Both the position numbers and the translations under genes were made by a program. Positions 14,231 to 35,067 of a DNA stretch of 64,000 nt are shown here, piece by piece. The notes under the pieces were generated by a model. The model was given only the letters and a program-made list of their open reading frames with translations. It was not told where the DNA came from and ran no database searches. Position 1 is the first letter of the stretch, and each line of letters starts with the position of its first letter. The stretch is taken from positions 3,968,001-4,032,000 of the forward strand of contig NZ_CP030840.1 of NCBI RefSeq assembly GCF_003330725.1, read 5' to 3'. The DNA comes from Acidisarcina polymorpha. Lineage in GTDB: Bacteria > Acidobacteriota > Terriglobia > Terriglobales > Acidobacteriaceae.

Positions 14231-14974
14231 TAGAATCCAGTTTAGTTTCAGTGTCTTACGAGAAGGCGACACAGAACTTCTAGTACACTTCGGGTACAAA
14301 ATAGGGTACAGTGCGCATCCTGCATATTTTGAATAGGTTAAGCATCTCTGGCACTTACTCTGCCCCAGCAATCTATGTCTAGTTAGCCTCGCTTTACGCT
14401 AGATGACGGAATGCGCAGCGGATAATCAGTCCGCCTAAGAGGAGCCTCTGACTATCTGACAGTTGGGCGCACTTTTTCACTGGTGTGTGCCTTTTGGCAG
14501 ATAGAGAAGAGGGAACAGCAATGGACCCTTACCCTCCAGGCTATTGTGGTTACAGGAACGTTGCGCTCACCCTAGATGAGCGACTCGCCCTGTTCTCGCC
14601 ATCGGCTAGCAGATAAGGAAGACAAGCCTCGCTTAGGGGATGAGTGTACCGGGACATGCGCTACGTTGTGGACCTGAGACATCCGTTACAAACCCGTTGC
14701 TGGGTAAGGGGTCTTCCCAATCTTCCGGACTGCGCTCGCGCAGAACAGATCCCGACGACTAACGGATAATCGGTCGCCTTTGGAGATCGTGCTTTCGACG
14801 GCCCATGGTGCGGCACTCGACTCGGTCCGCGTCAGTTGATCGATACTGCACCTTGCGCTTCTATGCGCCTGGACCAAGATGGATCTAGATGGCCGAATCC
14901 AATTGATTTTTGGCATTCGTTGCCCTTTCAGGTTCGCAATAATCAGACTTCAGAATCAAACGCGAGTTCAAGCT
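14231..14974. other. Gene-poor stretch downstream of tRNA-Leu
   Basis: There is no supported gene between the tRNA and the first GlxA-like regulator. I looked for an integrase next to the tRNA and for a second copy of the tRNA 3' end elsewhere in the window and saw neither. At 14910-14940 there is a weak relative of the 31-bp motif described below (TTGGCA, then TTGCCC), 34 bases before the regulator start. Confidence 0.5.
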
Positions 14975-15979
14975 ATGTCCAGTCGCCCACGCGTCATCGC
15001 GTTCTTAGTTGCTTCGCCGTTCGAGCTTCTCGATTTGGCCGGGCCAGCTTCTGTATTTTCGTACCCTAAGGTGAACGCCAAACCCCACTACCTTCTAAAG
15101 ATTCTTTCGACGAACAGTGACACAGAGGTACAGAGCACTGCAGGGCTGGCGATTAACAATTCTGTCCATTTCTCCACGTACAAGGGGCCGATCGACACCC
15201 TCATCGCCGTTGGGGGAGAAGGCTCTCTTAGAAGGCAGGCGGACGATGTCATTCGCTGGATACGCAAACGGGCTTCGCACGCCCATCGCATTGCCTCTGT
15301 TTGCACTGGAGCTTTCATGCTTGCCCCGACAGGAGTGCTTGATGGAAGGCGCGTGACGACCCACTGGCGCTATCTCGATTTGTTGGCGGAAACTCACAAG
15401 CAATTGCTGATCGAACGCGATCCGATCTTCATCAAAGACGGCAAGGTCTACACGACGGCTGGGGTCAGCGCAGGAATCGATCTTGCACTGTATCTCGTCG
15501 AGGAAGACCTTGGGCAAACGGTGGCAGCATCTGTAGCTCGTGAAATGGTCCTGTTCTTGAGGCGACCTGGTAATCAAGCGCAATTCAGCACGTTGCTTGC
15601 TCAGCAAGCGTACGTGATTGGCACTCCGCTTCGCGATCTTCCGTCGTGGGCAAAAACACGTCTCGGGCAAAAGCTCGATGTGAGTACCCTAGCAAAAGCC
15701 GTCGCGATGACACCGAGGACCTTTGCCCGGCAGTTTGAACAACACTTTCGTACGACTCCGGCTCGTTGGATACAATCACTTCGGGTAGAGGCCGCACGAC
15801 AGCTGGTTGAAGCCCGCGAACTTCCTGTGAAGGCGATCGCCCGGAGCGTCGGATTTCGAGATGAACAAGCGATGCGTCGAGCGTTTCTCCAACAGCTTGC
15901 GATTACTCCAAAACAATATCGGGAACGCTTTGGAGTTCAAGAGGCCAGACGCTCTCAGTCGATCGCGCCCATTGGATGA
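14975..15979 (+). CDS. GlxA-like regulator: DJ-1/PfpI domain plus AraC HTH (copy 1)
   Basis: The ATG at 14975 is chosen because paralogues start at the same place (RPRVIAFLVASPFELLDLAG). The product is 335 residues. Residues 1-190 form a DJ-1/PfpI class I glutamine-amidotransferase-like domain with the nucleophile-elbow Cys at about residue 110 (SVCTGAFMLAP). Residues 215-320 form the AraC double HTH (AMTPRTFARQFEQHFRTTPA and RSVGFRDEQAMRRAFLQQ). Such proteins are cytoplasmic activators, often of nitrogen-compound or detoxification genes. Its stop overlaps the glycosylase start (ATGA), so both are one operon. Confidence 0.92.
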   Translation: MSSRPRVIAFLVASPFELLDLAGPASVFSYPKVNAKPHYLLKILSTNSDTEVQSTAGLAINNSVHFSTYKGPIDTLIAVGGEGSLRRQADDVIRWIRKRASHAHRIASVCTGAFMLAPTGVLDGRRVTTHWRYLDLLAETHKQLLIERDPIFIKDGKVYTTAGVSAGIDLALYLVEEDLGQTVAASVAREMVLFLRRPGNQAQFSTLLAQQAYVIGTPLRDLPSWAKTRLGQKLDVSTLAKAVAMTPRTFARQFEQHFRTTPARWIQSLRVEAARQLVEARELPVKAIARSVGFRDEQAMRRAFLQQLAITPKQYRERFGVQEARRSQSIAPIG

Positions 15980-16896
15980 CCTCTCATTCTAAAATCTCGC
16001 CGGGCGGCAAACCGATGATACGAGACATCTCGTACGCTCAGCCATACGACTGGCAGTCGATGCTCGCATTTTTTCGTGCTCATCACCTTCCGCATCTGGA
16101 GTCAGTAGATAGCTCGGGGTATGAGCGTATCGCACACACGCGCGCTGGACTCGGCTGGTTTCGTGTTGAACACCACGATAGCCTTCACGCCATTCGTCTT
16201 TCTGTCTGGAACGCTACTGAAGAGGACGTCGTCGAAATCTCTGCGACGGTGGAAGATATGTTCGATCTCAGAGCACAACCTGACATTCTCGATAAAGCGA
16301 TGAGCAGCGACTCTTCTTTGTTTCAGCTATGGACCCAGTCCCCAGGACTCCGTGTCGGTCGCGCTTGGAATGGCGTTGAATCGATGTTTACTACGGTTCT
16401 CGGGCAATTGGTATCCGTGAGCTTCGGTCGAACTTTGATTAACGAGTTGATGAGAACCGCTGAATCGAAAGCGCGTCATCCGAAAACATCTGACGGTATT
16501 TATCTATTTCCGACCGCAGAGCAGATCATTGACGCAGACTTGTCGAGTGTTCGTACTTCGGAAGATCGCAGGTCAACTATCCGCACCCTGGCGACGCTCC
16601 TTAGAAATGGTTCGATCGATTGGAGCAAAACGGGATCAACGAGCGAGCAAAAAAGGACTCTTCTTGCCATTCCGGGCGTGGGTAGTTGGACAGCAGAGTA
16701 TATAGCGATGAGGGCTTTCCACGATAATGATGCATTCCCTGCAACAGACTATGGATTAAAGAAGGTGTTGAAGCAACATCCCGAGATTGAGGTCAAACGA
16801 GTTCGTCCTTGGCGCGCATATGCCGCATCGGCGCTCTGGAGGAGCTTCGCCGAAGGAAAAGCTATTAGTAATCTCCATACACTTCCCAGGGTTTGA
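15976..16896 (+). CDS. AlkA-like DNA-3-methyladenine glycosylase (HhH-GPD)
   Basis: A 306-residue protein. The helix-hairpin-helix lies in LLAIPGVGSWTAEYIAMRAF, followed by the catalytic Asp of the HhH-GPD superfamily at residue 258 (ATDYGLKK). The N-terminal half matches the AlkA N-terminal fold, without the Ada zinc domain. It removes alkylated purines from DNA and starts base excision repair. It is coupled to the GlxA-like regulator by ATGA and overlaps the convergent ATL gene by 32 bases. With ATL and Ogt nearby it forms an alkylation-repair set. Confidence 0.9.
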   Translation: MTSHSKISPGGKPMIRDISYAQPYDWQSMLAFFRAHHLPHLESVDSSGYERIAHTRAGLGWFRVEHHDSLHAIRLSVWNATEEDVVEISATVEDMFDLRAQPDILDKAMSSDSSLFQLWTQSPGLRVGRAWNGVESMFTTVLGQLVSVSFGRTLINELMRTAESKARHPKTSDGIYLFPTAEQIIDADLSSVRTSEDRRSTIRTLATLLRNGSIDWSKTGSTSEQKRTLLAIPGVGSWTAEYIAMRAFHDNDAFPATDYGLKKVLKQHPEIEVKRVRPWRAYAASALWRSFAEGKAISNLHTLPRV

Positions 16897-17299
16897 ACAA
16901 ATGTTCGAACTCGTCCATATTTACTCGTTTTCCTTCGAATTCCACGCCTTCGAGCTTTAGCCGTGAGCGTTGTTCGTGAGCTGCATCGCCGCGCAGTTTG
17001 ATCTCGCCGCCGGCACCCAGAATTCGATGCCACGGCAATTGGTCTACCGGGTCAATCCGAAGAAGCTTGGCGACGGCTCTATGATATCGGGGGTAACCTG
17101 CAGCGGCAGCGACGCTGCCGTAGGTGCTGACCTTGCCGACCGGAATTGACAAGATCATCCTTCGAAATGCTATATCGCGCTCCTCGTTGGGTCGAAGCGC
17201 CTCACGAAGTAAGCCTCGTTTGCTCCGTTCGATTGACAGCTGTTCGAATACAATCCTTGGCGGCGCTGTTCGGCGTTTTGATTTGGACTGGGCACTCAT
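16865..17299 (-). CDS. Alkyltransferase-like (ATL) DNA-binding protein, Cys replaced by Trp
   Basis: A 144-residue protein of the MGMT fold: FRRMILSIPVGKVSTYGSVA, then AAGYPRYHRAVAKLL. The active-site motif PCHR of O6-alkylguanine transferases reads PWHR here (LPWHRILGAGGEI), so it cannot accept an alkyl group. Such ATL proteins bind O6-alkylguanine and recruit nucleotide excision repair. A nonstandard C-terminus (MDEFEHLFKPWE) follows the fold. It is convergent with the glycosylase gene. Confidence 0.9.
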   Translation of the reverse strand: MSAQSKSKRRTAPPRIVFEQLSIERSKRGLLREALRPNEERDIAFRRMILSIPVGKVSTYGSVAAAAGYPRYHRAVAKLLRIDPVDQLPWHRILGAGGEIKLRGDAAHEQRSRLKLEGVEFEGKRVNMDEFEHLFKPWEVYGDY

Positions 17300-17696
17300 A
17301 TGTATTTGTTAGATAACCAGGAGTCCAATTAGGTCGCAGCTCTAGCAAATGCAATGGCCTTGGTATTCGTCTTTCTGCCAGCTGCTTGAAGAGTCGGCGA
17401 TCACTCGGACTGGAGTCCTGAAGAACGCCCTAGCGATTCAGGGTAGACAGCCATGACACTCAATGGAAGTCTCGTCGGGCAATACCATCTGGTATTCCGT
17501 AGCGAGTGTCTTGGTAAGGAGATTGCCTGGCGAGTAGTGTGGTTTAGCGGAGCTTTCCTACGTCAGAATCATCAATCGACATCCAATCTCACTTGAAGAG
17601 CGATTGGCAGGATATGCATGCTTTTTGGCATATCCTGCCGCACTGCGCTCTCATCTATCGCTTAGTACGTAAGACTGGTTCATTAAGGAGGACGCG
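17300..17696. other. Intergenic stretch with a long palindrome
   Basis: There is no supported gene. Its main content is the 17604-17639 element described separately, which lies about 60 bases before the small gene at 17697. The rest shows no repeat or frame I can support. Confidence 0.5.
17604..17639 (+). promoter_or_regulatory. 31-bp motif, site 1, embedded in a 12-bp-arm palindrome
   Basis: 17604-17634 aligns without gaps to the sites at 18579, 22703 and 26351 (TGGCAGGAT, then GC, a T-run, G and CA). Here the motif also forms a perfect inverted repeat, GGCAGGATATGC and GCATATCCTGCC with a 10-base spacer (17606-17639). The site ends about 60 bases before the start of the small gene at 17697. 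It is either a regulator site or a hairpin; its membership of the motif set favours the first. Confidence 0.65.
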
Positions 17697-17936
17697 ATGA
17701 AAGCCGAGGCTCAGAGTGTTGCAACGTTGAAAGAACTTTCCCATGACCCAGTGCAAGAAGGTTTAGAAGAATTAGAAAAATACCTACGTTCTACGCCTCG
17801 GTGCGTCGCCAGTGGGCACGCAGAACGAGCCACGGAAGTGCCTCTTGCTTCCACGGAGGATCTGCTACATGACGGTTTCGACCAGTTGGAAAGAACCTTG
17901 AAGGCAGCTCGGCTTGATGCGACCACGCATTGCTAA
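17697..17936 (+). CDS. Small protein with an internal repeat, unknown function
   Basis: A 79-residue acidic, helical protein with a strong AAGGAGG 6-7 bases before its ATG. It seems to be two copies of one helix: DPVQEGLEELEKYLRST near residues 17-33 and DLLHDGFDQLERTLKAA near 54-71. I know no family. It lies downstream of site 1 of the shared motif and 67 bases before ogt, with which it may be co-transcribed. The ribosome-binding site and repeat support it being real. Confidence 0.6.
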   Translation: MKAEAQSVATLKELSHDPVQEGLEELEKYLRSTPRCVASGHAERATEVPLASTEDLLHDGFDQLERTLKAARLDATTHC

Positions 17937-18003
17937 AGAGCATCTACTCCCGCTATGCGAGGCAAAAACTCATTAGAACGTCTGGCAAATTAGAAGGAGC
18001 AGC

Positions 18004-18501
18004 ATGAGTTTGTCATACAAAATCGTTGCGTCTCCCATCGGACCGCTGAAAGTGGTCGCCAGCGAGACGGGACTGGTGGCTATTCTTTGGGAAAACGACA
18101 GTCCCCGGCGTGTTCGCCTGTCAGAGCTGGTAGAACGTCCGGATCATGCCCTCTTGACTCGCACAGAGAAGGAGCTAGACGAATACTTCGCCGGCAAGCG
18201 AGATGCATTCACAGTGCCTCTCGATATGAGAGGTACGCAATTCCAAAAGGAAGTATGGGCAGCACTCCTAGAAATTCCGTTTGGAGAGACTCGCACCTAC
18301 GGTCAGCTTGCTATTCAACTCGGCAACCCGAAAGCAACACGAGCGGTGGGTGCAGCGAACGGACGGAATCCTCTAGCAATCCTCGTACCCTGCCATCGCG
18401 TCATCGGTTTTTCCGGAAAGCTCACCGGGTTCGCAGGCGGGCTAGATGCTAAGGCTCATCTTCTTCGGCTTGAGGGTCGCGACGAAATGCTGTTCTCGTG
18501 A
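18004..18501 (+). CDS. ogt: Methylated-DNA-[protein]-cysteine S-methyltransferase
   Basis: A 165-residue suicidal DNA repair protein. The acceptor Cys is residue 130 in LVPCHRVIG; upstream FGETRTYGQLA and NPKATRAVGAANGRNPLAI form the HTH and Asn hinge, and GFAGGLDAK follows. It transfers alkyl groups from O6-alkylguanine to itself. An AGAAGGAG-type ribosome-binding site precedes the start. Together with the AlkA-like glycosylase and ATL protein it covers the main cytosolic alkylation-repair routes. Confidence 0.95.
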   Translation: MSLSYKIVASPIGPLKVVASETGLVAILWENDSPRRVRLSELVERPDHALLTRTEKELDEYFAGKRDAFTVPLDMRGTQFQKEVWAALLEIPFGETRTYGQLAIQLGNPKATRAVGAANGRNPLAILVPCHRVIGFSGKLTGFAGGLDAKAHLLRLEGRDEMLFS

Positions 18502-18578
18502 AGACGAACAGTTCGAAGCACTTCGAACAAAAGACGGTTGCGGATTCTGAGACAGTCAGAAGGCTCGGCGATCTCAAG

Positions 18579-18609
18579 TTGGCAGGATTCGCCCTGTTTT
18601 TGTCACGAC
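18579..18609 (+). promoter_or_regulatory. 31-bp motif, site 2 (upstream of MFS gene)
   Basis: It starts TTGGCAGGATTCGCCC and ends TTTTTGTCACGAC. It aligns without gaps to three other sites and lies 48 bases before the MFS start. GGC and GCC form a short inverted repeat in its left half. Confidence 0.7.
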
Positions 18610-18657
18610 AGGTTTTTCCCTTGGATCATCATAAGCCTGTTTCGCTTGGAGGTTAGG

Positions 18658-20127
18658 ATGGATCGACGTTTACTTGTACTTGCGCTCGGGATGTTCGCTC
18701 TCGGCACCGACAGTTTTGTCGTAGCAGGCGTGCTACCAGAGATTTCACGCCACTTCCATATCAGCATCGGCGCTGCTGGACAGATGACAACTGCATATGC
18801 GATCACCTACGCCCTCATGGCACCACTACTTGCGGCGGTGGCAGCGCACGTTCCACGGAAAGGCATGTTGCTAACGGGGCTCTGTATCTTCGTCATCGCT
18901 AACCTGGTTACGGCAGCGTCACCGAATTTTGCCCTCGCTATCGCGAGCCGAATCTTTGCTGGCATAGGCGCCGCAATGTTTGCGCCGACCGCCACGGGTG
19001 CCGCTGCTACTCTGGTTCCGCCCGAACGGCGCGGTTATGCGCTGTCGATCGTGATCGCCGGGCTGACTGCCTCTACGGCTCTTGGTTCACCTATTGGTGC
19101 TGTTATCGGCGGACTGGGGGACTGGCGGTGGACGATGGTATTCGTATCAGCTCTCGCCGCAGCGTCGTTGGTGGGTGTTGCTCTTATGTTGGCTCAAGTT
19201 CCACCGCCGCCCAAGATCTCTCTCTTCCAGCGCATAAAGCCTGTGGGAGACCCCCGGGTGGCGTTTACGCTCCTCACCACTTGGCTTTATCAAAGCGGGC
19301 AGTTTGTCACTTACACGTACTTTACGGTTGTCTTCGATAGAGCTATTGGCCACAACTCTGTATTGGTCGGACTGCTCCTGGTTGCATTTGGGCTTAGTGG
19401 AACAGTCGCAAACCTATTCGTCGGGCGGTTGGCGGATTCCATGGGCAATCGCAGGCTAATTTTCGGAATGCTCATTATGCTCACAATCGTTCTTGCGTCC
19501 CTCTCTTGGGCGAGCGCGACTTTGTGGACCGCCATCCCTGCTTTGATCCTCTGGGGCGCCTGCGGCTGGGGTCTTCTAGCGCCGCAGCAGCATCGGCTAG
19601 TTGCAGTAGCTCCCCAGACGGCCCCTGTTGTACTCGGATTGAACACTTCATGCACATACTTCGGTGTTACAACCGCTGGTGTAATTGGGGCGCTCACCAT
19701 CAATGTTCTTGGACCTCATCATCTTGGGTATCTAGGTGCGGTCTTCGTAGTTGTTGCATTGGGCGTCGCAGAACTTGCTACCTGGCGAATCAACGTATCG
19801 GACAGAGAATTCTCCGTGCTGAAGGGCTGGCTAAGGCCTGATCCACCTATATTGCAAACTGAACCATCACGTCGCCGCCGGTTCTCCCTGAGAATCGGAT
19901 CTAAGATCGCTCGCCATGAAGGCACCAAACTGTTCTCGGTGTTCACGGGTGTCATTGACAGTTGTTGCACAAAGGCACAACGCAGGGATTGCTCGTCACG
20001 AAAGCCGGTAAGCCTTGCAATGGCCTTGACGGGCAACGCTTGCGCTTCGAGACGTCCACATGCTGCCTCTACGCGTAGTGACTGCAGCCAACGAGCCGGT
20101 GTTGTACGAAAATGCACCTCGAACTGA
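18658..20127 (+). CDS. MFS drug/arabinose-type exporter with a read-through tail
   Basis: The start at 18658 follows TTGGAGG. Residues 1-385 hold about 12 membrane segments of the DHA1/AraJ-like MFS type (GTDSFVVAGVLPEI, then ASRIFAGIGAAMFAPTATG with the antiporter-type motif). From about residue 400 (after WRINVSDREF) the frame runs on for some 90 residues as the antisense of the decayed GlxA-like copy 2, so the native stop was probably lost when that gene fused in. The tail is low-quality protein. Its substrate is probably a small organic compound or drug; it is likely controlled through site 2. Confidence 0.85.
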   Translation: MDRRLLVLALGMFALGTDSFVVAGVLPEISRHFHISIGAAGQMTTAYAITYALMAPLLAAVAAHVPRKGMLLTGLCIFVIANLVTAASPNFALAIASRIFAGIGAAMFAPTATGAAATLVPPERRGYALSIVIAGLTASTALGSPIGAVIGGLGDWRWTMVFVSALAAASLVGVALMLAQVPPPPKISLFQRIKPVGDPRVAFTLLTTWLYQSGQFVTYTYFTVVFDRAIGHNSVLVGLLLVAFGLSGTVANLFVGRLADSMGNRRLIFGMLIMLTIVLASLSWASATLWTAIPALILWGACGWGLLAPQQHRLVAVAPQTAPVVLGLNTSCTYFGVTTAGVIGALTINVLGPHHLGYLGAVFVVVALGVAELATWRINVSDREFSVLKGWLRPDPPILQTEPSRRRRFSLRIGSKIARHEGTKLFSVFTGVIDSCCTKAQRRDCSSRKPVSLAMALTGNACASRRPHAASTRSDCSQRAGVVRKCTSN

Positions 20128-20885
20128 CCAGCGAAGGTGCGGGTCGTCATTGCGACGACTTTGGCTAACGAGTGAACGTCAAGTCTCTGATTAAGACGAG
20201 CCATGGCCCAAGCTGGAAGGTCTTGCATTGGCGTCCCGCTAACGTCGGCCTGCTGACTGAGAATAGTACTGTACTGTGCTTCGCTACCGGGGCAACGCCT
20301 GTATAACACCAACTCACGGGCGATAGAAGTAGCAACTTCGTGCACGAGATCTTCTTCGACGAACCCGAGTGCCAGATCGATCCCTGCAGCCACGCCCGCA
20401 GTCGTGTAAACATTCCCGTCCTTGATATAAATAGTGTCTTTCTCGACCCGCAGATGTGGATAAAGCTTTGTGAGCTTGTCGACATGATGCCAATGGGTCG
20501 TTATTCGCTTTCCATCTAGAACTCCTGTTGGTGCGAGCATGAGCGTTCCAGTACACACAGAGGCGATTCGGCGGACGCGAGCTGCACGCTTACGTATCCA
20601 ACGGAACAGATCTGGTGATAATTCGCCGAGTGCCCCTTCTCCGCTAATGGCTATAAGCGTGTCTATGGGACCGTTACATTCGGAAAACAATACTCCGTTG
20701 CTCACAGAGATGCCGGCCGTGCACTGTACCTCGGGCTCGGGACTTGTCGATAAAATCTTGAGCGCGTATCACGGCTTCCCCTCAACTGCGGGGTAGGAGA
20801 ACAACAACGAGGCGATCCCTATCAAGTTAAGAAGATCGACTGGCGGAGCAACGATAAAAGCGATGACTCGTGGGCGACTAGGCAT
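19866..20885 (-). pseudogene. GlxA-like regulator (copy 2), inactivated
   Basis: The coding sequence starts MPSRPRVIAFIVAP at 20885 like copy 1, but a TGA at 20769-20771 interrupts it (GKP, stop, YALKILST). The frame resumes through VCTGTLMLAPTGVLDG and the AraC HTH, where a single-base deletion after MTP shifts the frame; restoring it gives EHREQFGAFMASDLR and a stop at 19866-19868. The longest intact frame starts only at 20705 and lacks the first 60 residues of the DJ-1 domain. Two independent lesions argue for decay, not one sequencing error. Confidence 0.75.
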
Positions 20886-21156
20886 AGCATGATCTCGAAC
20901 GAACAGAATTGCATTTTCCCACGTGTTTTCATCGGTTCGCTACCAACCGGTTCACCTGTCGTCCGACCGCAGCCTACGGCCTAATTCGCTCGACATCACG
21001 GCTTGAAGAATGCGCCTCGCACCGTGGCACAAAATGATTGGTTATTGGCAGCATTTGCAACCTCCAATCGGTGAATATAAGTCCGAGAGAATTTGACGTG
21101 TATCGAATTCCCTCGCAGTATTGGCGAGCCGCATTGAAGCTCGAAGGGAGAGGAAG

Positions 21157-21831
21157 ATGGATAGGGCGATCTGTGATTCCAACCGGTTAGATGACAGCAT
21201 AAATGAGGTCGCTGCGTCGGAAGATCTTGTGCAATTAGCTCAGGCCGGCTCCCACGATGCCTTTGAAGAGTTGCAAACAACGTACTCACAGCGGTTATTC
21301 AAACAGATCATCGCGATCACCAGACATCACGAAGACGCAGAGGACGCCCTGCAGGACGCTTTATATAAAGCCTACGTTGCATTGCCCCAATTTGGTGGTC
21401 GATGCCACATCTACACCTGGATGAGCAGAATCGCTATCAATTGCGCCCTAATGAAAGTCCGGAAGCGGAAGGTTCTTCGAGAATATTCATTGAGCGATCA
21501 AAGCCATTCGGATGACCGGGAGCCTATCAAGGAGATCCCGGACCATAAGTGGTCTCCGGAAGAGATCTGCAGAGCCGAAGAATGGCTCCGGCATATTGCC
21601 ACGGCTTCCCAAACGCTTGATCCAGTGTCGAGACATGCCCTTATGCTACGGGTAAATAACGACTACACGTTAGAGGAAATCGCTGACGCCCTAGACGTTT
21701 CAGTATGTGCGGCAAAAGCGAGGTTGTACCGTGCCCGACATCGCCTTAGAGTATTTTGTCCCGACCCCGATGAATGTCGTCCACAACAATCATCTCTTGC
21801 CTCTAGCTCATCTCGAACGAGCTCGAAATGA
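21157..21831 (+). CDS. ECF-type RNA polymerase sigma factor
   Basis: A 224-residue product from the ATG at 21157 after GGGAGAGG; an earlier TTG is possible. Region 2 is visible in AFEELQTTYSQRLFKQIIAI and DAEDALQDALYKAY. Region 4 is visible in HALMLRVNNDYTLEEIADAL and VCAAKARLYRARHRLR. No anti-sigma gene is adjacent. It is convergent with the DUF1272/ArsR pair, and its target promoters are unknown. Confidence 0.92.
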   Translation: MDRAICDSNRLDDSINEVAASEDLVQLAQAGSHDAFEELQTTYSQRLFKQIIAITRHHEDAEDALQDALYKAYVALPQFGGRCHIYTWMSRIAINCALMKVRKRKVLREYSLSDQSHSDDREPIKEIPDHKWSPEEICRAEEWLRHIATASQTLDPVSRHALMLRVNNDYTLEEIADALDVSVCAAKARLYRARHRLRVFCPDPDECRPQQSSLASSSSRTSSK

Positions 21832-21854
21832 AGTGCTACGCGTCTTAACATAAT

Positions 21855-22049
21855 TCAGCTGAGGGCCCGGACAGGGCGCCGAATCAGTTCGCCTCCACAA
21901 TTCGGACATCGGCTCTTTAGGACTTCAACCGTGCATTTTCGAAAAAACGTGCATTCGAAGGAGCAGATCATCGCATCTAGCGAATCCTGTGGCAGCTCTC
22001 CGCCGCAACGTTCGCAATTGCATTTCATCCCTAACATAGCCCGACCCAT
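21855..22049 (-). CDS. DUF1272 small zinc-ribbon-like protein
   Basis: A 64-residue protein with eight or more cysteines in pairs: CNCERCGGELP, ICSFECTFFRKC and CPNCGGELIRRP, matching DUF1272. It is probably a structural zinc protein of unknown role. It starts 3 bases after the ArsR gene ends, so the two are co-translated. Met at residue 5 or 8 may be the real start. Confidence 0.85.
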   Translation of the reverse strand: MGRAMLGMKCNCERCGGELPQDSLDAMICSFECTFFRKCTVEVLKSRCPNCGGELIRRPVRALS

Positions 22050-22052
22050 TCC

Positions 22053-22427
22053 TTAGTGCTGTACAGCCGGCGGCACCCGCCTCGTAGCGGTAGAGATCTT
22101 CCGCAGTGGCCGCCCCTCAGATTCAAGCATCCGGAGATATCTCCAATATGCTCTCAGACTGTTTGGAACCGTGCGATAGTACACTCCTTGGCCCTCCCTT
22201 CGCGATTCAATCAAACCGGACTCTGACAGTACCTTTAGGTGATGGGAGACGGTTGAAGCGCAGACTGAGGTGCCGAGGCAGATATCTTGGCACCGCATCT
22301 CATTCAGTTCGGCGATATGTTTGTAGATCAAGAAGCGGGTGTGATCGCAAAATGCTCTTGCGATCTGCACCGCACGCAATTCATCCATCGAGTTCATCAA
22401 AGCGTCTCGACCCTCGCATCCCGGCAT
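22053..22427 (-). CDS. ArsR family transcriptional regulator
   Basis: A 124-residue winged-helix repressor with DHTRFLIYKHIAELNEMRCQ and the recognition helix CASTVSHHLKVLSESGLIES, then a wing REGQGVYYRT. The start is uncertain, since Met at residue 11 or 14 is equally good. It is paired with DUF1272. The upstream bases include CGCTCGCGAATC, a 12-mer also present in the leader repeat at 7524, possibly by chance. Confidence 0.9.
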   Translation of the reverse strand: MPGCEGRDALMNSMDELRAVQIARAFCDHTRFLIYKHIAELNEMRCQDICLGTSVCASTVSHHLKVLSESGLIESRREGQGVYYRTVPNSLRAYWRYLRMLESEGRPLRKISTATRRVPPAVQH

Positions 22428-22793
22428 AGTGTTTTAGTACGCTCGCGAATCTTTCGATGCCTAGGAAAGAGAAGAAGTCTCAGAGTCATCGTTATGGTAC
22501 TGACGCCGACGCGACGCTAGCGATAGCAGTTAACGGTGGCATGTTCGTCGCCCAACGAAGAGATGAACTGCCCACTTGCCACGTCGTACGAGCCGCGTCA
22601 GCATTGGCGTTTATCGCTCCACAGCATCATCGCGCTGACGGGTTCAGTGCCGGATATATGCGCCTCATCAACCTGTGTAGATCGGCGGTGGGCAAGTGTG
22701 GCCTGGCAGAATTTGCCTCTTTTTTGTCACAACGATGCTTTCCGATAGTCATCGAACAAGCGCAACGAATTCAGATCATCAAGGAGTTTGCCA
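22428..22793. other. Intergenic region carrying motif site 3
   Basis: There is no supported gene. A 142-codon plus-strand frame crosses it and runs into the hydrolase gene in another frame; its composition is unconvincing. The notable content is the motif at 22703-22733. Confidence 0.5.
22703..22733 (+). promoter_or_regulatory. 31-bp motif, site 3 (upstream of cysteine hydrolase)
   Basis: It starts CTGGCAGAATTTGCC and ends TTTTTTGTCACAAC, aligning without gaps to sites 1, 2 and 4. It lies 60 bases before the ATG at 22794. Confidence 0.7.
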
Positions 22794-23489
22794 ATGTTTA
22801 CGTTCACCCATCGCAACCCGGAGATGCAGATCGACAAGCCACATACCGCATTGGTCTTGGCCGACATCCAAAACGAATTTCTTGAAGAGAAGACCGGGAC
22901 GTATTACGAGCTGATCGCGGACGCGCTCAAGAAACGTAACGTAGTTGGGAATTTGGAGCAGCTCCTGAAGACTGCGCAGGAACTCGGCTACTACATCATC
23001 CATTCGCCACACTGGTACTACCCTACGGACCTCCAATGGAATGTCCCTCCCGGAGCCATCGCGGACTATCTCATTGGTATCGGTTTCTGTGGTCGCAAGG
23101 ATCCGGTTGATCTCGAAGGCTTCCACGGCTCGCGGTCGGACTATTATGAGCCGTTCAAGAAATATCTGATGGACGGGCATACCTGCAACACGTCACCTCA
23201 CAAGCATTTTGGCTGCGTAGCGAACGACGTGATCAAGCAATTGCACATGCGCAAGGTTCAGAAGGTAATCATGGCGGGCCCAGTCGCCAATATCTGTCTT
23301 GAATCCCACATGCGAGACATTATCGAGGCAGGTTTCGAAGTCGCGTTGGTGCGAGACGCGGTGGCGGCAGGCGTGAACGACGAAGGCGACGGCTACGAAG
23401 CGGCAATGGTTAACGCTCGCTTTATGGCGAACGCAATGTGGACCACTGACGAGGCCGTAAAGCGTATGAAGGCAGCGGCTTCGGCATAG
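22794..23489 (+). CDS. Isochorismatase-family cysteine hydrolase
   Basis: The ATG at 22794 is preferred because AAGGAG lies 7 bases upstream; a TTG at 22788 would be too close. The product has 231 residues. The catalytic triad positions are visible: Asp in LVLADIQNEFL, a Lys near the middle, and Cys in GPVANICLESHMRD. The family hydrolyses amide or ester bonds (isochorismate, nicotinamide, biuret). GlxA-like regulators often neighbour such hydrolases, which fits the shared motif upstream. Confidence 0.9.
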   Translation: MFTFTHRNPEMQIDKPHTALVLADIQNEFLEEKTGTYYELIADALKKRNVVGNLEQLLKTAQELGYYIIHSPHWYYPTDLQWNVPPGAIADYLIGIGFCGRKDPVDLEGFHGSRSDYYEPFKKYLMDGHTCNTSPHKHFGCVANDVIKQLHMRKVQKVIMAGPVANICLESHMRDIIEAGFEVALVRDAVAAGVNDEGDGYEAAMVNARFMANAMWTTDEAVKRMKAAASA

Positions 23490-23635
23490 CGACACTTTCG
23501 GCCGAGTCCTAATTTATAGGGCTTTGTTGCGTGCCGTTTATCAAGCATTGGCAAGAAATCGCGGGATCAATCGCCCACGTGATCTTCCTTAGAGATTGGA
23601 TGAAGGACAACACGGAAACTAAAGAGGAGTCTTAT

Positions 23636-24505
23636 ATGAGCAAGACAATTCTTATCACTGGCACGTCTAACGGCTTCGGAAAAGACGCAGCTATAACGCT
23701 TGCTACAGCAGGGCATCAGGTATTCGCATCAATGCGCGATCTGAGTGGTCGCAATCGCGGGGCCGCCGATGATCTGCGTTCCAAAGGTATTGAGGCGTTA
23801 GAACTGGACGTTACCAACGACGTCAGTGTTGGCGCTGCGTTCAGCGAGCTGTACAGGAAAACTGGTGGCAAGCTGGATGTCTTGATCAACAATGCAGGCT
23901 TGTTTGCTCAAGGGATTTCGGAAACATACACTCCCGAACAGGTCCGCGAAATGTTTGAGGTCAATGTTGTCGGGATTCAGCGTGTGACCCGAGCTGCTCT
24001 TCCTGATATGCGGAAGCAGCGATCCGGTCTGATTATCAATATCGGATCGATCCTCGGTCGCGTGACGATTCCATTCATCGGACTTTACGGTGCCTCTAAA
24101 TTCGCAGTGGAAGCTCTTACTGAGAGCTACCGCTATGAGTTGTCCCAGCTGGGTGTCGACGTCGTACTCGTTCAACCTAGCGCATATCCGACTGGCCTAT
24201 ACTCGGCGACCCAACAGCCCGCTGATGCCGGTCGAGCTCAGGAATATGGAGAGATCGCCACACTTCCAGGTGCATTTGTCCAATTCTTGTCGCGCGTCTT
24301 CAGCAGTGCCGAGGCGCCCGACTCCCACGATGTGGCAAAAGAGCTGGTCAAGCTGGTCGAGACGCCTGCAGGTCAGCGTCCTGACCGTCTGATCGTTGGC
24401 GCAGGATATGGCGCTGACGCAGTTAACGTCGCCGTGCAACCCATTCAGGCCCAAATGATCTCTGGCATCGGCTTCGATGGACTGACGAAATTGAACGTTC
24501 AGTAG
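23636..24505 (+). CDS. SDR family oxidoreductase
   Basis: The start at 23636 follows AGAGGAGT; the product has 289 residues. It has GTSNGFG for cofactor, INNAGLF, Ser in IINIGSILG and YxxxK in LYGASKFAV. The C-terminal 60 residues are longer than in the shortest SDRs, resembling the retinol-dehydrogenase-like subgroup. A weak relative of the 31-bp motif (TTGGCAAGAAATCGC) lies near 23549. It probably forms a transcription unit with the hydrolase upstream or with the next SDR. Confidence 0.9.
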   Translation: MSKTILITGTSNGFGKDAAITLATAGHQVFASMRDLSGRNRGAADDLRSKGIEALELDVTNDVSVGAAFSELYRKTGGKLDVLINNAGLFAQGISETYTPEQVREMFEVNVVGIQRVTRAALPDMRKQRSGLIINIGSILGRVTIPFIGLYGASKFAVEALTESYRYELSQLGVDVVLVQPSAYPTGLYSATQQPADAGRAQEYGEIATLPGAFVQFLSRVFSSAEAPDSHDVAKELVKLVETPAGQRPDRLIVGAGYGADAVNVAVQPIQAQMISGIGFDGLTKLNVQ

Positions 24506-24639
24506 TTCAGTCGGAGTTTGAGTCTGTCTTCGTTCATCGACAAGCGAAGACGGGGAACAGGCTCACGCCAGACGCTCGAACCCTCCGCAGCGTCCGAACA
24601 TAGACCCCGGCAAGCCAACCCTTGGAGTGAGGAAATCAA

Positions 24640-25350
24640 ATGAGTGAAGAGCGAAAAGTCTTGGTCGTAACCGGATCGTCGCAGGGATTGGGCGCGGCGT
24701 TCGTAAAGTCTTATAGAGCGCGCGGATGGCGTGTTGTTGGAAATGCGCGTGAGATTAAGCCATCCGATGACGCCGACTACATCACGGTCCCCGGTGACAT
24801 CGGCGACCCCATTATTGCCAGGAAAGTCGTTCAAACGGCGCTAGACCGCTTCGGTAGAGTCGACACTCTCATCAACAATGCAGGCATCTGGCGTCCAGGA
24901 CCGATTGCGTCGATCTCTGAAGAGATGTATCGAAGAGTGATGGCGACCAACGTGGATGCCGTCTTCTTCGCAACTCAAGTCGCCGTGCCGGCCATGCAAA
25001 AGCAAGGCGGAGGCCACATCATCCAAGTCCTGACGAGCTTGGTTGAACATGCGCTTCAAGATGTGCCCGCTGTCCTGGCCTCTCTATCGAAAGGAGCCTG
25101 TGCTTCCGCGACTCGCGGACTTGCGATGGAACTAGCCAGAGACAACATCCGAGTAAATGCTGTATCGCTTGGCATCATCGATACACCGCTCCATGATCCT
25201 TCATCTCTGGAGGGAAAGAAGTCGTTCGCCCCGCTAAACCGATATGGGACGGTGGCCGACGTTGTGCGCGCGGTCAACTATCTCGAAGATTCAGATTTTG
25301 TCACTGGCGAAATCTCTTATATCGATGGCGGTCGTACGGCTGGTCACTGA
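24640..25350 (+). CDS. SDR-fold protein lacking the catalytic tyrosine
   Basis: A 236-residue protein with a clear SDR fold: VVTGSSQGLGAAFV, INNAGIW, and the typical C-terminus FVTGEISYIDGGRTAGH. Where classical SDRs have YxxxK, it reads AVLASLSKGAC, with Lys kept and Tyr replaced. This ASLSK or ASLTK variant occurs in a known atypical SDR subgroup. It may bind a cofactor without normal catalysis or use another acid. GGAGTGAGG lies upstream of the start. Confidence 0.87.
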   Translation: MSEERKVLVVTGSSQGLGAAFVKSYRARGWRVVGNAREIKPSDDADYITVPGDIGDPIIARKVVQTALDRFGRVDTLINNAGIWRPGPIASISEEMYRRVMATNVDAVFFATQVAVPAMQKQGGGHIIQVLTSLVEHALQDVPAVLASLSKGACASATRGLAMELARDNIRVNAVSLGIIDTPLHDPSSLEGKKSFAPLNRYGTVADVVRAVNYLEDSDFVTGEISYIDGGRTAGH

Positions 25351-25446
25351 GATCTCCGTTGCGGGCGGCGGAACCCTCTCGCAGCGGACAATTTATTGCG
25401 TGCTTAAACCTCCCGCGCCGGGACTGATAGCGAGTATGGAAAAAGC

Positions 25447-26235
25447 ATGTCGATGAAATCGTCCTTACAGGAACACTGGCCCGAGTATCTGATAGAGATC
25501 GCACTGTTGGCGGTCTTTATGGTCTCGGTTGGGGTTCTCGTAACTGTGTTTGAGGCGCCCCGATCGCTTCTCTACTCGCTCATCCCGAACACAACCCTAC
25601 GCATTGTCCTGATGGCGACGTCAATCAGCATGGTTTTGGGACTTCTGATTCAATCTCCGTGGGGTAAGCGCTCAGGCGCCCACATGAACCCTGCGATCAC
25701 AATAGCGTTTCTCCTATTAGAGAAGGTTCACCCCTGGGACGCACTGTTTTACGTCCTCGCACAAACGATGGGTGGAACTCTCGGCATTGCTCTTGTCGCT
25801 TTGGCCATGGGGAGCCTGTTTACCGATCCGCCGGTCAGTTATGCCATGACGATGCCAGGCCCCGGTGGTGAAATGATCGCCTTCACGGCAGAGACGCTAA
25901 TTTCGTTCCTTCTCATGGCAACGATCTTGATTTGTGTCTCCTCGCCTCGTCTGATCCGTTTCACGGCATTGGCTATTGGTGTTCTTGTGGATGTCCTAAT
26001 CATCATCGAGGCGCCATTGTCCGGAACAAGTATGAACCCGGCTCGAACACTTGCTTCCGCTGTGCCAGGGATGATGTGGCAGCATATCTGGGTGTACCTC
26101 GCTGGACCACCTTTGGGGATGTTTGTGGCGGCACAACTGCATAAGCACAGTCTCAAAAATGCGGAGTATGGATGTGCGAAGCTCCTGCATCCACCCAATG
26201 TTCGTTGCATTCATTGTGGATATCTATGCGACTGA
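25447..26235 (+). CDS. MIP family channel (aquaporin/glyceroporin-like)
   Basis: A 262-residue inner-membrane protein with six membrane segments and both NPA boxes: AHMNPAITIAF and TSMNPARTLAS. The selectivity-filter residues cannot be assigned with certainty by eye. The C-terminal tail (EYGCAKLLH, then CIHCGYLCD) carries several cysteines, which is unusual. A second Met two codons in may be the real start. Confidence 0.88.
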   Translation: MSMKSSLQEHWPEYLIEIALLAVFMVSVGVLVTVFEAPRSLLYSLIPNTTLRIVLMATSISMVLGLLIQSPWGKRSGAHMNPAITIAFLLLEKVHPWDALFYVLAQTMGGTLGIALVALAMGSLFTDPPVSYAMTMPGPGGEMIAFTAETLISFLLMATILICVSSPRLIRFTALAIGVLVDVLIIIEAPLSGTSMNPARTLASAVPGMMWQHIWVYLAGPPLGMFVAAQLHKHSLKNAEYGCAKLLHPPNVRCIHCGYLCD

Positions 26236-26350
26236 AAGACTGACTCGTTCCAAATGCATTCCGGGTCCCTGCAGTGTTTCGCCGATCTCCCGTGAGACAG
26301 CCCAGGAACAGAATACTGTCGGCAAACTCGTTCCCGGCTACGCCGACATT

Positions 26351-26381
26351 GTGGCAGGATTTGCCCCTTATATGTCAGATC
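26351..26381 (+). promoter_or_regulatory. 31-bp motif, site 4 (upstream of PEP-mutase-family gene)
   Basis: It starts GTGGCAGGATTTGCCCC and ends TATGTCAGATC. It aligns without gaps to the other three sites. It lies 115 bases before the start at 26497, farther away than in the other cases. Confidence 0.65.
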
Positions 26382-26496: not shown

Positions 26497-27288
26497 ATGA
26501 CGACAAAAGCGGGAAATGTACCTAAAGAGAAATTAGCCGAGAAGATCGAAGTGTTTAGGAAGCTGCATGTTCCCGGAACGCCGCTCATCCTCTACAACAT
26601 CTGGGACGCGGGCAGCGCACGGGCAGTTGCCAGGTCCGGAGCAAGAGCAATTGCAACTAGCAGTTGGGCTGTCGCAAAGGCTCATGGATTCGAAGATGGT
26701 GAGCAGATACCCTACGAGCTGGCACTTCAGAGCCTTCGCCAAGTCGTAGAAGCAGTGGATTTGCCAGTAAGCTTTGATCTCGAAAGCGCCTACGGCGAGA
26801 ACCCGAAGGAAGTGGAGAAAAACTTCTCCCTTGCTATCAGTGCGGGAGCGGTAGGGTGCAACTTTGAGGACAGTGTGCCCGGTACCAGGACGATTCGGGA
26901 TATAGCGACGCAGGTAGGCCGTATTCGCGCCGCACGCAGAGCCTCGGACGCAGCTGATGTTGAATTCTTCATCAACGCTAGATGTGACCTTTTCTTCCAA
27001 GGTCCATCCGTCAAGCACGATGAGGATTTGCTTGCCAAGGTTCTAGATCGAGCATCCGCATATGCAGAAGCCGGAGCGGACGGCCTCTTTGTGCCGGGGT
27101 TGACGACGATATCGCTCATCTCCCAACTCGCGAAGAGAAGCCAAATCCCAATAAACATCTTGGCTGATTCATCAACCTCGGTTCAAATGCTGGCCGATAG
27201 CGGTGTATCCCGCGTGAGCTATGGGGCAGGCCCCTACATCGAGGCGCTTAATGCTTTGGAACAGGCAGCTCGTGCGGTCACCAGATAG
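26497..27288 (+). CDS. Isocitrate lyase/PEP mutase family enzyme
   Basis: A 263-residue TIM-barrel protein. PLILYNIWDAGSARAVARSG, SFDLESAYG, GCNFEDSVPG and FFINARCDLF are the metal- and substrate-binding blocks of the PEP mutase/oxaloacetate hydrolase group. The KKCGH catalytic loop of isocitrate lyase is absent. It is probably a carboxy-acid C-C lyase or a phosphonopyruvate-type enzyme of unknown substrate. Confidence 0.88.
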   Translation: MTTKAGNVPKEKLAEKIEVFRKLHVPGTPLILYNIWDAGSARAVARSGARAIATSSWAVAKAHGFEDGEQIPYELALQSLRQVVEAVDLPVSFDLESAYGENPKEVEKNFSLAISAGAVGCNFEDSVPGTRTIRDIATQVGRIRAARRASDAADVEFFINARCDLFFQGPSVKHDEDLLAKVLDRASAYAEAGADGLFVPGLTTISLISQLAKRSQIPINILADSSTSVQMLADSGVSRVSYGAGPYIEALNALEQAARAVTR

Positions 27289-33432: not shown

Positions 33433-34458
33433 ATGACGGAGCGCCGCCATCCCGTTATCGCTTTTCTTGTGCCGTCTCCGTTCGAGATCCTCGATCTGAC
33501 GGGGCCGGTCTCAGTTTTTGAGCGCGCTACAAAGAATGGCGAACGCCATTACTTGATTCAAATCCTCTCCACCCGATCGGGTGGCACAGTCGAGACTGCA
33601 GGCGGGATGTCTATCGGCAACGCCCTCAAATTCTCTGACTATGTGGGACCAATCGATACGCTGATTGCCATCGGAGGCGACGGAGCCGTCGCCGAGCAGT
33701 CACCTGAATTGCCGAAATGGCTGCAAGAGCGTGCCCCTTATATTCGCCGTATCGCATCCATCTGTACAGGGGCGTTTATTCTGGCAGGTGCTGGCCTGCT
33801 CGATGGGCATCGCGTTGCTACACATTGGCTTTGGTGCGATCTTTTCAAGAACCGCTATAAGCATCTCAGGGTGGAACGCGATCCCATCTTCATCAAAGAG
33901 GGCAAGTTTTACACCACCGCCGGTGTGACGGCGGGTATTGATCTGTCTCTCGCACTTGTCGAAGAAGATCTTGGACATGCGGTAGCTGCTGAGATTGCCA
34001 GGATATTGGTCCTGTTTCTGAGGCGGCCTGGAGGGCAATCTCAGTACAGCACTTTGTTGGCGCAGCAAGAAGAGATAGAAGACGCGAGGATGCGCGATCT
34101 TCCTGTTTGGGTCAAAGCGCATCTAAACCGAAAACTCGACGTTGAAGATCTTGCGAGAGCCGCCGCGATGAGTCCACGGACTTTCATGCGTCAATTCAAA
34201 ACTCAGTTTGATACGACTCCCGCGCGCTGGGTGCAATCACTTCGCGTCGAAGCCGTGATGCAACATCTTGAAGAGCGCAGTACCTCGCTTAGCAAGATTG
34301 CTCACATGACGGGGTTCCGCGACGAACAGGCGTTACGTAGAGCACTTCGACAGCAAATTGGGCTGACGCCGAATCAGTACCGTGAACGATTTGGGGAGTT
34401 GGGTCGCGATCGTGGACTACTCCCAGAGCGGCTCTTCGAAGACGAAGCGAGGGTCTAA
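33433..34458 (+). CDS. GlxA-like regulator: DJ-1/PfpI domain plus AraC HTH (copy 3, intact)
   Basis: A 341-residue protein. DJ-1/PfpI domain with SICTGAFILAGAGLLDGHRV; AraC HTH with AMSPRTFMRQFKTQFDTTPA and HMTGFRDEQALRRAL, ending TPNQYRERFGELG. It is full length and shows no lesions. It lies just downstream of the RND operon on the same strand and is followed by a decayed copy of itself. It is the likely activator of the RND operon or of the other motif-bearing promoters. Confidence 0.92.
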   Translation: MTERRHPVIAFLVPSPFEILDLTGPVSVFERATKNGERHYLIQILSTRSGGTVETAGGMSIGNALKFSDYVGPIDTLIAIGGDGAVAEQSPELPKWLQERAPYIRRIASICTGAFILAGAGLLDGHRVATHWLWCDLFKNRYKHLRVERDPIFIKEGKFYTTAGVTAGIDLSLALVEEDLGHAVAAEIARILVLFLRRPGGQSQYSTLLAQQEEIEDARMRDLPVWVKAHLNRKLDVEDLARAAAMSPRTFMRQFKTQFDTTPARWVQSLRVEAVMQHLEERSTSLSKIAHMTGFRDEQALRRALRQQIGLTPNQYRERFGELGRDRGLLPERLFEDEARV

Positions 34459-34562: not shown

Positions 34563-34835
34563 AGTGAACGGAGTTCGCCGATGCGTCACATCCCGTGGTC
34601 GTTTTCGGTGTGCCGTATCCGTTCGAGATTCTCGATCTGACAGGCCCTGCTTCAGTTTTCGAGCGTCTGTAGTCAATGGAGAGCGATATTATTCGATCCG
34701 AATTTTGTACACTCGATCGAACGGCGCTGTGACAACAGAAGGCGGAATGATCATCGCTGATTCCTGCAAATATGCTGACTATGTGGGACCGATCGACACC
34801 CTCATTGTGAGCGGGGTGTGGGCGCTGTCACCCCA
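34563..34835 (+). pseudogene. GlxA-like regulator remnant (copy 4)
   Basis: One frame gives HPVVVFGVPYPFEILDLTGP and ASVFERL, then TAG. Another frame carries on with NGERYYSIRILYTRSNGAV, GGMIIADSCKYADYV and GPIDTLIVSG, closely matching copy 3. After this the similarity stops; the Cys elbow and the whole HTH are missing. It looks like a tandem duplicate of copy 3 that was truncated. The bases up to 35046 form an open frame (ending with EIKRDGLRSDR) that I cannot assign. Confidence 0.75.
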
Positions 34836-35067
34836 CATGCGATACAAGCTATCTTCGAAGGTGAAGAGATGCCAGGTTTTGAAGGCCGCCCTCGACACAC
34901 TGGCACTTGGCAGTCTGTTTGCTCTTAGCTTGTGGGAAAAGAGGTTGAAGCGCAAACTCGAAGGACGCCCACTCGAGCCTGAAAACGTGATCGATTTTCG
35001 CGGGTCGAGCGAAATCAAGAGAGATGGGCTTCGTTCCGATAGGTGATTGACGCGCATTGCGTAAAGG

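Follow-up and report, generated by a model that had tools for sequence, protein, structure and literature searches.

Ada, an AraC-type regulator of Escherichia coli, governs alkA together with an O6-alkylguanine alkyltransferase, and the sites of XylS at Pm and of AraC at araBAD have a 21-bp period. According to an excerpted account, Pm has two head-to-tail half-sites, each built of a box A and a box B (PMC5481539). Closer in domain structure are the GATase1-type AraC regulators of Pseudomonas: CdhR recognises direct repeats of GGTCGC separated by 15 bp and has a 34-bp footprint, and GbdR, SouR and ArgR are similar in the excerpted part of the same report (PMC5806209). AdpA of Streptomyces has the consensus TGGCSNGWWY and a Cys62 which is modified by reactive sulfur (excerpt of PMC9952706), and Arg262 and Arg266 of its first helix-turn-helix (HTH1) read the DNA (excerpt of PMC8994273). 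Here we describe a candidate operator of DJ-1/PfpI-AraC regulators in Acidisarcina polymorpha, a member of the Acidobacteriaceae. The window, meaning the whole stretch of DNA that was analysed, comprises 64,000 nucleotides (contig NZ_CP030840.1, positions 3,968,001 to 4,032,000). It holds a gene island in which a motif stands at four promoters, together with two genes encoding such regulators, named GlxA1 (14975-15979, plus strand) and GlxA2 (33433-34458, plus strand).

We read the motif as the operator of the island's DJ-1/PfpI-AraC regulators, most likely of GlxA2 and perhaps shared with GlxA1, and give this reading a probability of roughly 85%. It is based on the layout of the motif as 21-bp direct repeats, its co-occurrence with one regulator clade, its presence at DJ-1/AraC genes outside the island and the covariation between regulator helix and site. 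These four lines of evidence also support the first-pass annotation, which had taken the motif as the binding site of the GlxA-like AraC proteins encoded here.

The four 31-nucleotide sequences reported in that annotation at 17604, 18579, 22703 and 26351 are present at these coordinates, and the four sites are real. Site 1 (17605-17630) lies before a 79-aa open reading frame (ORF) and the O6-methylguanine DNA methyltransferase (MGMT, OGT) gene, and site 2 (18580-18605) before a major facilitator superfamily (MFS) efflux gene with its ATG at 18658. Site 3 (22704-22729) precedes an isochorismatase-family gene (likely ATG at 22794) and two short-chain dehydrogenase/reductase (SDR) genes, and site 4 (26352-26377) a phosphoenolpyruvate (PEP)-mutase-family gene and the genes of a resistance-nodulation-division (RND) pump. 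All four are exact matches on the plus strand to the pattern of their shared positions, TGGCAGNATNNGCNNNNTNTNTGNCA, which has four exact matches in the window. With up to three mismatches it is found at six places in the window against 0.50 expected, and none of 100 shuffles reached six. The genome scan proposed in the first-pass annotation was carried out by pattern over the whole genome (7.6 Mb, five contigs), and its exact matches were just these four, all in one 8.8-kb stretch (17604-26381). The reversed pattern, used as control, had no match with at most one mismatch in the same genome. Two-mismatch places number six, against three in the control, with four within open frames and two outside. 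The 3-kb loci of these six contain no DJ-1/AraC gene, and the six places look like chance matches.

To describe the motif, 30 sites from seven stretches of DNA were aligned. The consensus, TGGCAG R A W T TGC Y Y N T TTTT TGKCA, contains TGGCA and TGKCA as a direct repeat whose halves begin 21 bp from each other, an arrangement known from AraC-family operators. Positions T1, G2 and C4 as well as T22, G23 and C25 are invariant in all 30 sites, an invariance which is partly built in because the sites were picked by score. The conserved columns end at the motif edges and return only at a CRTC element, which begins at position 46-49 in 19 of the 30 sites (17 control windows average 1.6 of 30) and at 47 or 48 in all four main window sites. 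At most island promoters it takes the promoter-like form CRTCNAAA, at a fixed distance of 20-21 bp after the proximal half, and at the MFS and isochorismatase promoters a Shine-Dalgarno-like sequence and the start codon follow soon after it. The CRTC element looks like a promoter element, which would place the operator either on top of the -35 region or directly upstream of it. Across 37 sites outside the island, the CRTC count stayed below four at every position from 46 to 49. A sigma-54 promoter was also considered, since TGGC and TTGC resemble its -24 and -12 elements, but it was rejected as the two lie 2 bp too close together. Many sites outside the island (at loci L181, L182, L183, L185, L196 and others) are followed about 10 bp on by CTGCCA, an inverted third half-site, and window site 1 carries the similar CTGCCG. 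In the upstream regions of the homologs outside the island, spacings of 10 and 31 stand out for inverted TGKC-GMCA pairs.

We searched 398 genomes of the Acidobacteriaceae by pattern. Since matches to the loose pattern with one mismatch, found in 65 of the 398 genomes, were mostly chance-like, a longer pattern was used. This extended motif occurs in six of the genomes and its reversed control in none. DJ-1/AraC proteins matching GlxA1 with at least 350 bits were found in five of the genomes, all among the six motif-bearing ones. An order-level search gave five of 298 genomes, all of the same family, and none of the 14 genomes of the other family. When the loose pattern was run over genome contigs, the matches listed were mostly scattered single ones across phyla; among those listed, locus L070 is the Acidicapsa dinghuensis island and L106 is without an island gene. 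The single loose matches L164 (genome G301) and L165 (genome G200) have no island.

Orthologous genes in four further genera of the family have the motif in front of them as well. Island and own-genome DNA totalling 202 kb, searched with a matrix built from the four window sites alone, contained 23 further sites of at least 20 bits; about 0.25 are expected there at 18 bits or more under a first-order Markov model, although those regions had been chosen on account of 11 of the 23. These sites are distributed over genomes G168 (4), G330 (5), G100 (4), G187 (8) and G319 (1) and the second own-genome regulator (1). The gene order of the island is rearranged between genomes, yet the sites stay with their genes: the isochorismatase and MFS promoters carry the site in G168, G330, G100 and G187, the PEP-mutase-family promoter in G330 and G187, and the alkyltransferase gene has it in G168 and G330 and, behind a small ORF, in G187. 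As read from the locus maps, 25 of the 30 aligned sites lie at most 400 bp upstream of a labelled gene on the same strand. Isochorismatase paralogs with 39-46% identity served as control: 17 of 18 such loci have no match of 6 bits or more, and the remaining one has a 13.5-bit match over 1 kb from the isochorismatase gene. The isochorismatase orthologs have sites of 29-42 bits in five of five genomes, these five being part of the matrix.

In the sixth motif-bearing genome, G319, a 2.7-kb piece is 92% identical to the window and GlxA1 is missing. The piece ends within the last bases of GlxA1 on one side and at the MFS start on the other; the MFS gene is truncated, and the small ORF carries a frameshift. 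Site 1 has lost its left half to a 27-bp deletion, and in site 2 G6 is changed to C. This one case fits a decay of the sites after loss of the regulator. G319 belongs to a different genus, and the 92% identity over 2.7 kb (loci L162 and L206) suggests a recent exchange followed by decay.

The only one-mismatch match in the A. polymorpha genome, C1:3069943 (locus L005), is located about 0.9 Mb away from the island. It lies 10 bp upstream of a gene for a 320-aa DJ-1/AraC-like protein (tblastn E-value 5e-27), with a divergent zinc-type alcohol dehydrogenase-like gene as neighbour on its other side. The earlier description of a local regulon is too narrow in view of this distant site and of the orthologous genes in other genera. 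Judged by these comparisons, the predicted regulon is conserved across genera and not merely local.

For an independent test we used 101 DJ-1/AraC genes outside the island and counted sites of at least 14 bits within 350 bp upstream. Such sites are present in 18 of the 101 upstream regions, compared to 1 of 100 downstream regions, 0 of 101 gene bodies and 0 of 2,020 simulated upstream regions, and seven upstream sites score at least 25 bits. After removal of near-identical sequences, TGKC direct repeats at exactly 21 bp were found in 35 of 92 non-redundant upstream regions. Other spacings between 12 and 40 bp reach at most 17 (the next highest being 26 bp with 17), and at 21 bp there are seven cases downstream and six in gene bodies. 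Outside the island a second variant of the site, TGTCC and TGTCG, goes with regulator helices of the form R[HQ]F[ST]R. Base 3 of the site is T in 12 of 12 regulators with this helix and G in 19 of 19 others. Among the genes read behind the outside sites, 16 of 20 have a Pfam match, namely HD-domain proteins (6), rhodanese (2) and one each of isochorismatase, TTHB210-like, aldehyde dehydrogenase, DJ-1, phenolic-acid-decarboxylase-like, tautomerase, alpha/beta hydrolase and glyoxalase. Many of these genes encode enzymes for small reactive compounds. A recurrent pairing was seen at L200, L235, L241, L248, L273 and L198, where a TGTC-class DJ-1/AraC gene is divergent to the gene of a 220-aa HD-domain protein.

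Several points weigh against the reading as a DJ-1/AraC operator. The island genes travel together, and the isochorismatase orthologs are found in the same five genomes as the regulators; moreover, the count of five genomes at 350 bits took in no more than the five best first-look candidates of each genome. For five of the 30 sites, the maps show no labelled gene on the same strand within 400 bp (G100:19822, G100:3335, G187:16478, G187:44419 and G187:44473). Outside the island, 83 of the 101 homologs are without a 14-bit site within 350 bp, and this set is not fully free of near relatives. The helix-base counts of 12 and 19 set aside two loci with mixed sites, the rule was framed after the data table had been seen, and the covariation goes back to two independent changes in the tree (sign test p 0.5). 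Being post hoc and based on two changes, the helix-to-base rule is only suggestive. The helix also differs between the two regulators of the island, with RTFMR in GlxA2 and RTFAR in GlxA1. Finally, the distance to the promoter-like element is shorter than in araBAD by about one helical turn, so that repression is possible.

As an alternative, the motif could be the promoter recognised by the extracytoplasmic function (ECF) sigma factor encoded in the island (21157-21831, plus strand, with profile matches), TGGCAG being the -35 and GTCA the -10 element with 16 bp between them. We consider this highly unlikely. A spacing of 16 bp would suit an ECF promoter and the sigma gene has orthologs in G330, G187 and G100, but the sites do not occur only with the cognate sigma gene, because G168 keeps four sites of at least 20 bits without a close ortholog (the best match has 144 bits and lies elsewhere in the genome). 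In addition, the GT of the would-be -10 element is replaced by GG in several sites, the two motif halves are alike, the motif adjoins DJ-1/AraC genes outside the island, and the downstream CRTC element would be left unexplained.

The ArsR-type repressor of the island (22053-22427, minus strand, with a profile match) is a further rival. Co-occurrence alone cannot separate it from the DJ-1/AraC regulators, because the island genes travel together and an ArsR ortholog is present in all five island genomes; like GlxA1, it is missing in G319. It is nevertheless extremely unlikely that the motif is the ArsR operator, given that ArsR proteins usually bind dyads whereas the sites are direct repeats, among which site 1 alone has a partial dyad (CGGCAGGATATGC, inverted, at 17628-17640), and that DJ-1/AraC genes outside the island also have the motif upstream. 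That the sites have nothing to do with regulation, being instead a repeat dispersed in the DNA or a conserved leader of unknown function, is extremely improbable as well: regulation by them is a prediction from sequence, but the conserved columns stop at the motif edges, flanks and genes differ, and the sites keep to promoters and to a single regulator family.

Under the DJ-1/AraC operator reading, two regulator subunits would bind head to tail, 21 bp or two helical turns apart, each reading TGGC or TGTC with its first HTH. Given the promoter-like CRTCNAAA at a fixed 20-21 bp, such binding would control initiation at the genes of the alkyltransferase, the MFS efflux transporter, the isochorismatase and SDR enzymes, the PEP-mutase-like enzyme and the RND pump. 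The ECF sigma factor probably belongs to the same controlled gene set. The DJ-1/AraC dimer may sense a small reactive (electrophilic or alkylating) compound in its DJ-1 domain, possibly at the elbow cysteine, and then bind the 21-bp repeats or change its hold on them. This would switch the repair, export and detoxification genes together, by activation or repression. We infer the binding, the copy which binds, the direction of control and the reactive-compound signal in the DJ-1 domain. Going further, we tentatively suggest, as a rather doubtful possibility, that a DJ-1/AraC sensor directs an adaptive response against alkylating or other electrophilic poisons, and that a single 21-bp code holds throughout the wider family, the third base of each half-site being set by an R-x-F-x-R helix. 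Efflux, detoxifying enzymes and DNA repair by both base excision and direct reversal would then answer to one operator, with the DJ-1 cysteine sensor doing what Ada does with its own methyltransferase.

Both GlxA1 and GlxA2 score above the Pfam cut-offs of DJ-1_PfpI and HTH_18, with the DJ-1/PfpI domain N-terminal and the AraC HTH C-terminal. GlxA2 has a counterpart in all five islands, and the DJ-1 elbow cysteine is kept in five of five GlxA2 counterparts. It is lost in one other copy each in G168 (SVGSG), G100 (IVGSA) and G187 (VVGSA). The name GlxA-like is a loose one: the models scoring nearest are FtrA and GbdR, and GlxA1 stays far below the NCBIfam equivalog cut-offs of both (225 of 425 and 123 of 480). 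A third copy, GlxA3 (19719-20885, minus strand), has one in-frame TGA stop and the second HTH1 arginine replaced by glycine, and seems to be a copy in decay. The MFS reading frame extends into GlxA3 from the opposite strand. Directly behind GlxA2, an open frame without a Pfam match (34564-35046, plus strand) is a remnant of a fourth copy, with 82% DNA identity over 77 nt. Two more DJ-1/AraC genes, on the genome's contigs 4 (L283) and 5 (L284), have equal score and identity, perhaps because they lie on a duplicated stretch.

The stop of GlxA1 overlaps the start of a gene for an AlkA-type 3-methyladenine DNA glycosylase (15976-16896, plus strand; AlkA_N; PRK10308 with 116 bits of 229). Ogt2 (16865-17299, minus strand; DNA_binding_1), in which PWHR replaces PCHR, adjoins AlkA and the full alkyltransferase, and we take it to be an alkyltransferase-like protein. 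The O6-alkylguanine DNA alkyltransferase itself (18004-18501, plus strand) has the PCHR motif. The MFS efflux transporter (18658-20127, plus strand; MFS_1) reaches 194 bits of 400 with the Cmx/CmrA model. Profile matches were also obtained for the isochorismatase-family (cysteine) hydrolase (22794-23489, plus strand) and the PEP-mutase/isocitrate-lyase-family enzyme (26497-27288, plus strand).

A probable fifth site, absent from the first-pass annotation, lies before the ECF sigma gene (21025-21050, plus strand, 15.3 bits) and has a 20.9-bit counterpart before the sigma ortholog in G330. Of the two weaker relatives proposed earlier, the one at 14910 was out of register. A better match at 14890-14915 (plus strand), before the GlxA1-AlkA gene pair, is marginal with 13.2 bits, or 18.8 bits with a 28-site matrix. 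The relative at 23549 scores below 11 bits and is not supported as a site. A match of 11.7 bits at 33996 is inside GlxA2 and was taken as chance.

The operator type itself is already known from CdhR and GbdR, as CdhR has the same 21-bp period and AdpA reads TGGC with HTH1 arginines. As far as the excerpted reports describe them, CdhR, GbdR, SouR and ArgR belong to the same two-domain subfamily and use direct repeats 21 bp apart, as found here, and TGKC of the motif lines up with GGTC of the CdhR half-site. They differ in that the half-site here is TGGCAG and the targets are repair, efflux and detoxification genes, not genes of amine or arginine use. AdpA shares the DJ-1-like domain and the AraC HTH with the island regulators, and the GlxA1 HTH aligns with the AdpA structure 3w6v (E-value 8.5e-13). 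GlxA1 keeps the HTH1 arginine pair at the AdpA spacing, and the pair would correspond to Arg262 and Arg266 in the numbering of the excerpted report. The AdpA consensus, as given in the excerpt, fits TGGCAGGATT at nine of ten positions; the fifth base is A here and C or G in AdpA. AdpA also differs in controlling hundreds of targets as a global regulator of development. XylS at Pm, according to the excerpted account, and AraC at araBAD resemble the motif in their two head-to-tail half-sites, but unlike the island regulators they have no DJ-1 domain.

For the DJ-1/AraC regulators of soil Acidobacteriaceae, a large group most of which is uncharacterised, the motif provides a candidate operator. 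Their target genes may be predicted from sequence alone, and the helix-to-base rule yields a simple prediction which can be checked at the bench. It also points to a stress regulon coupling DNA-alkylation repair with efflux and detoxification, a combination not found in the open-licence papers searched. With AlkA, an O6-alkylguanine alkyltransferase, an alkyltransferase-like protein and MFS and RND pumps, the putative regulon is reminiscent of the Ada response. Ada, however, is itself an alkyltransferase, whereas neither GlxA1 nor GlxA2 has a methyltransferase domain; here a regulator of another kind, with a DJ-1 domain, would govern a gene set to which efflux and detoxification enzymes are added.

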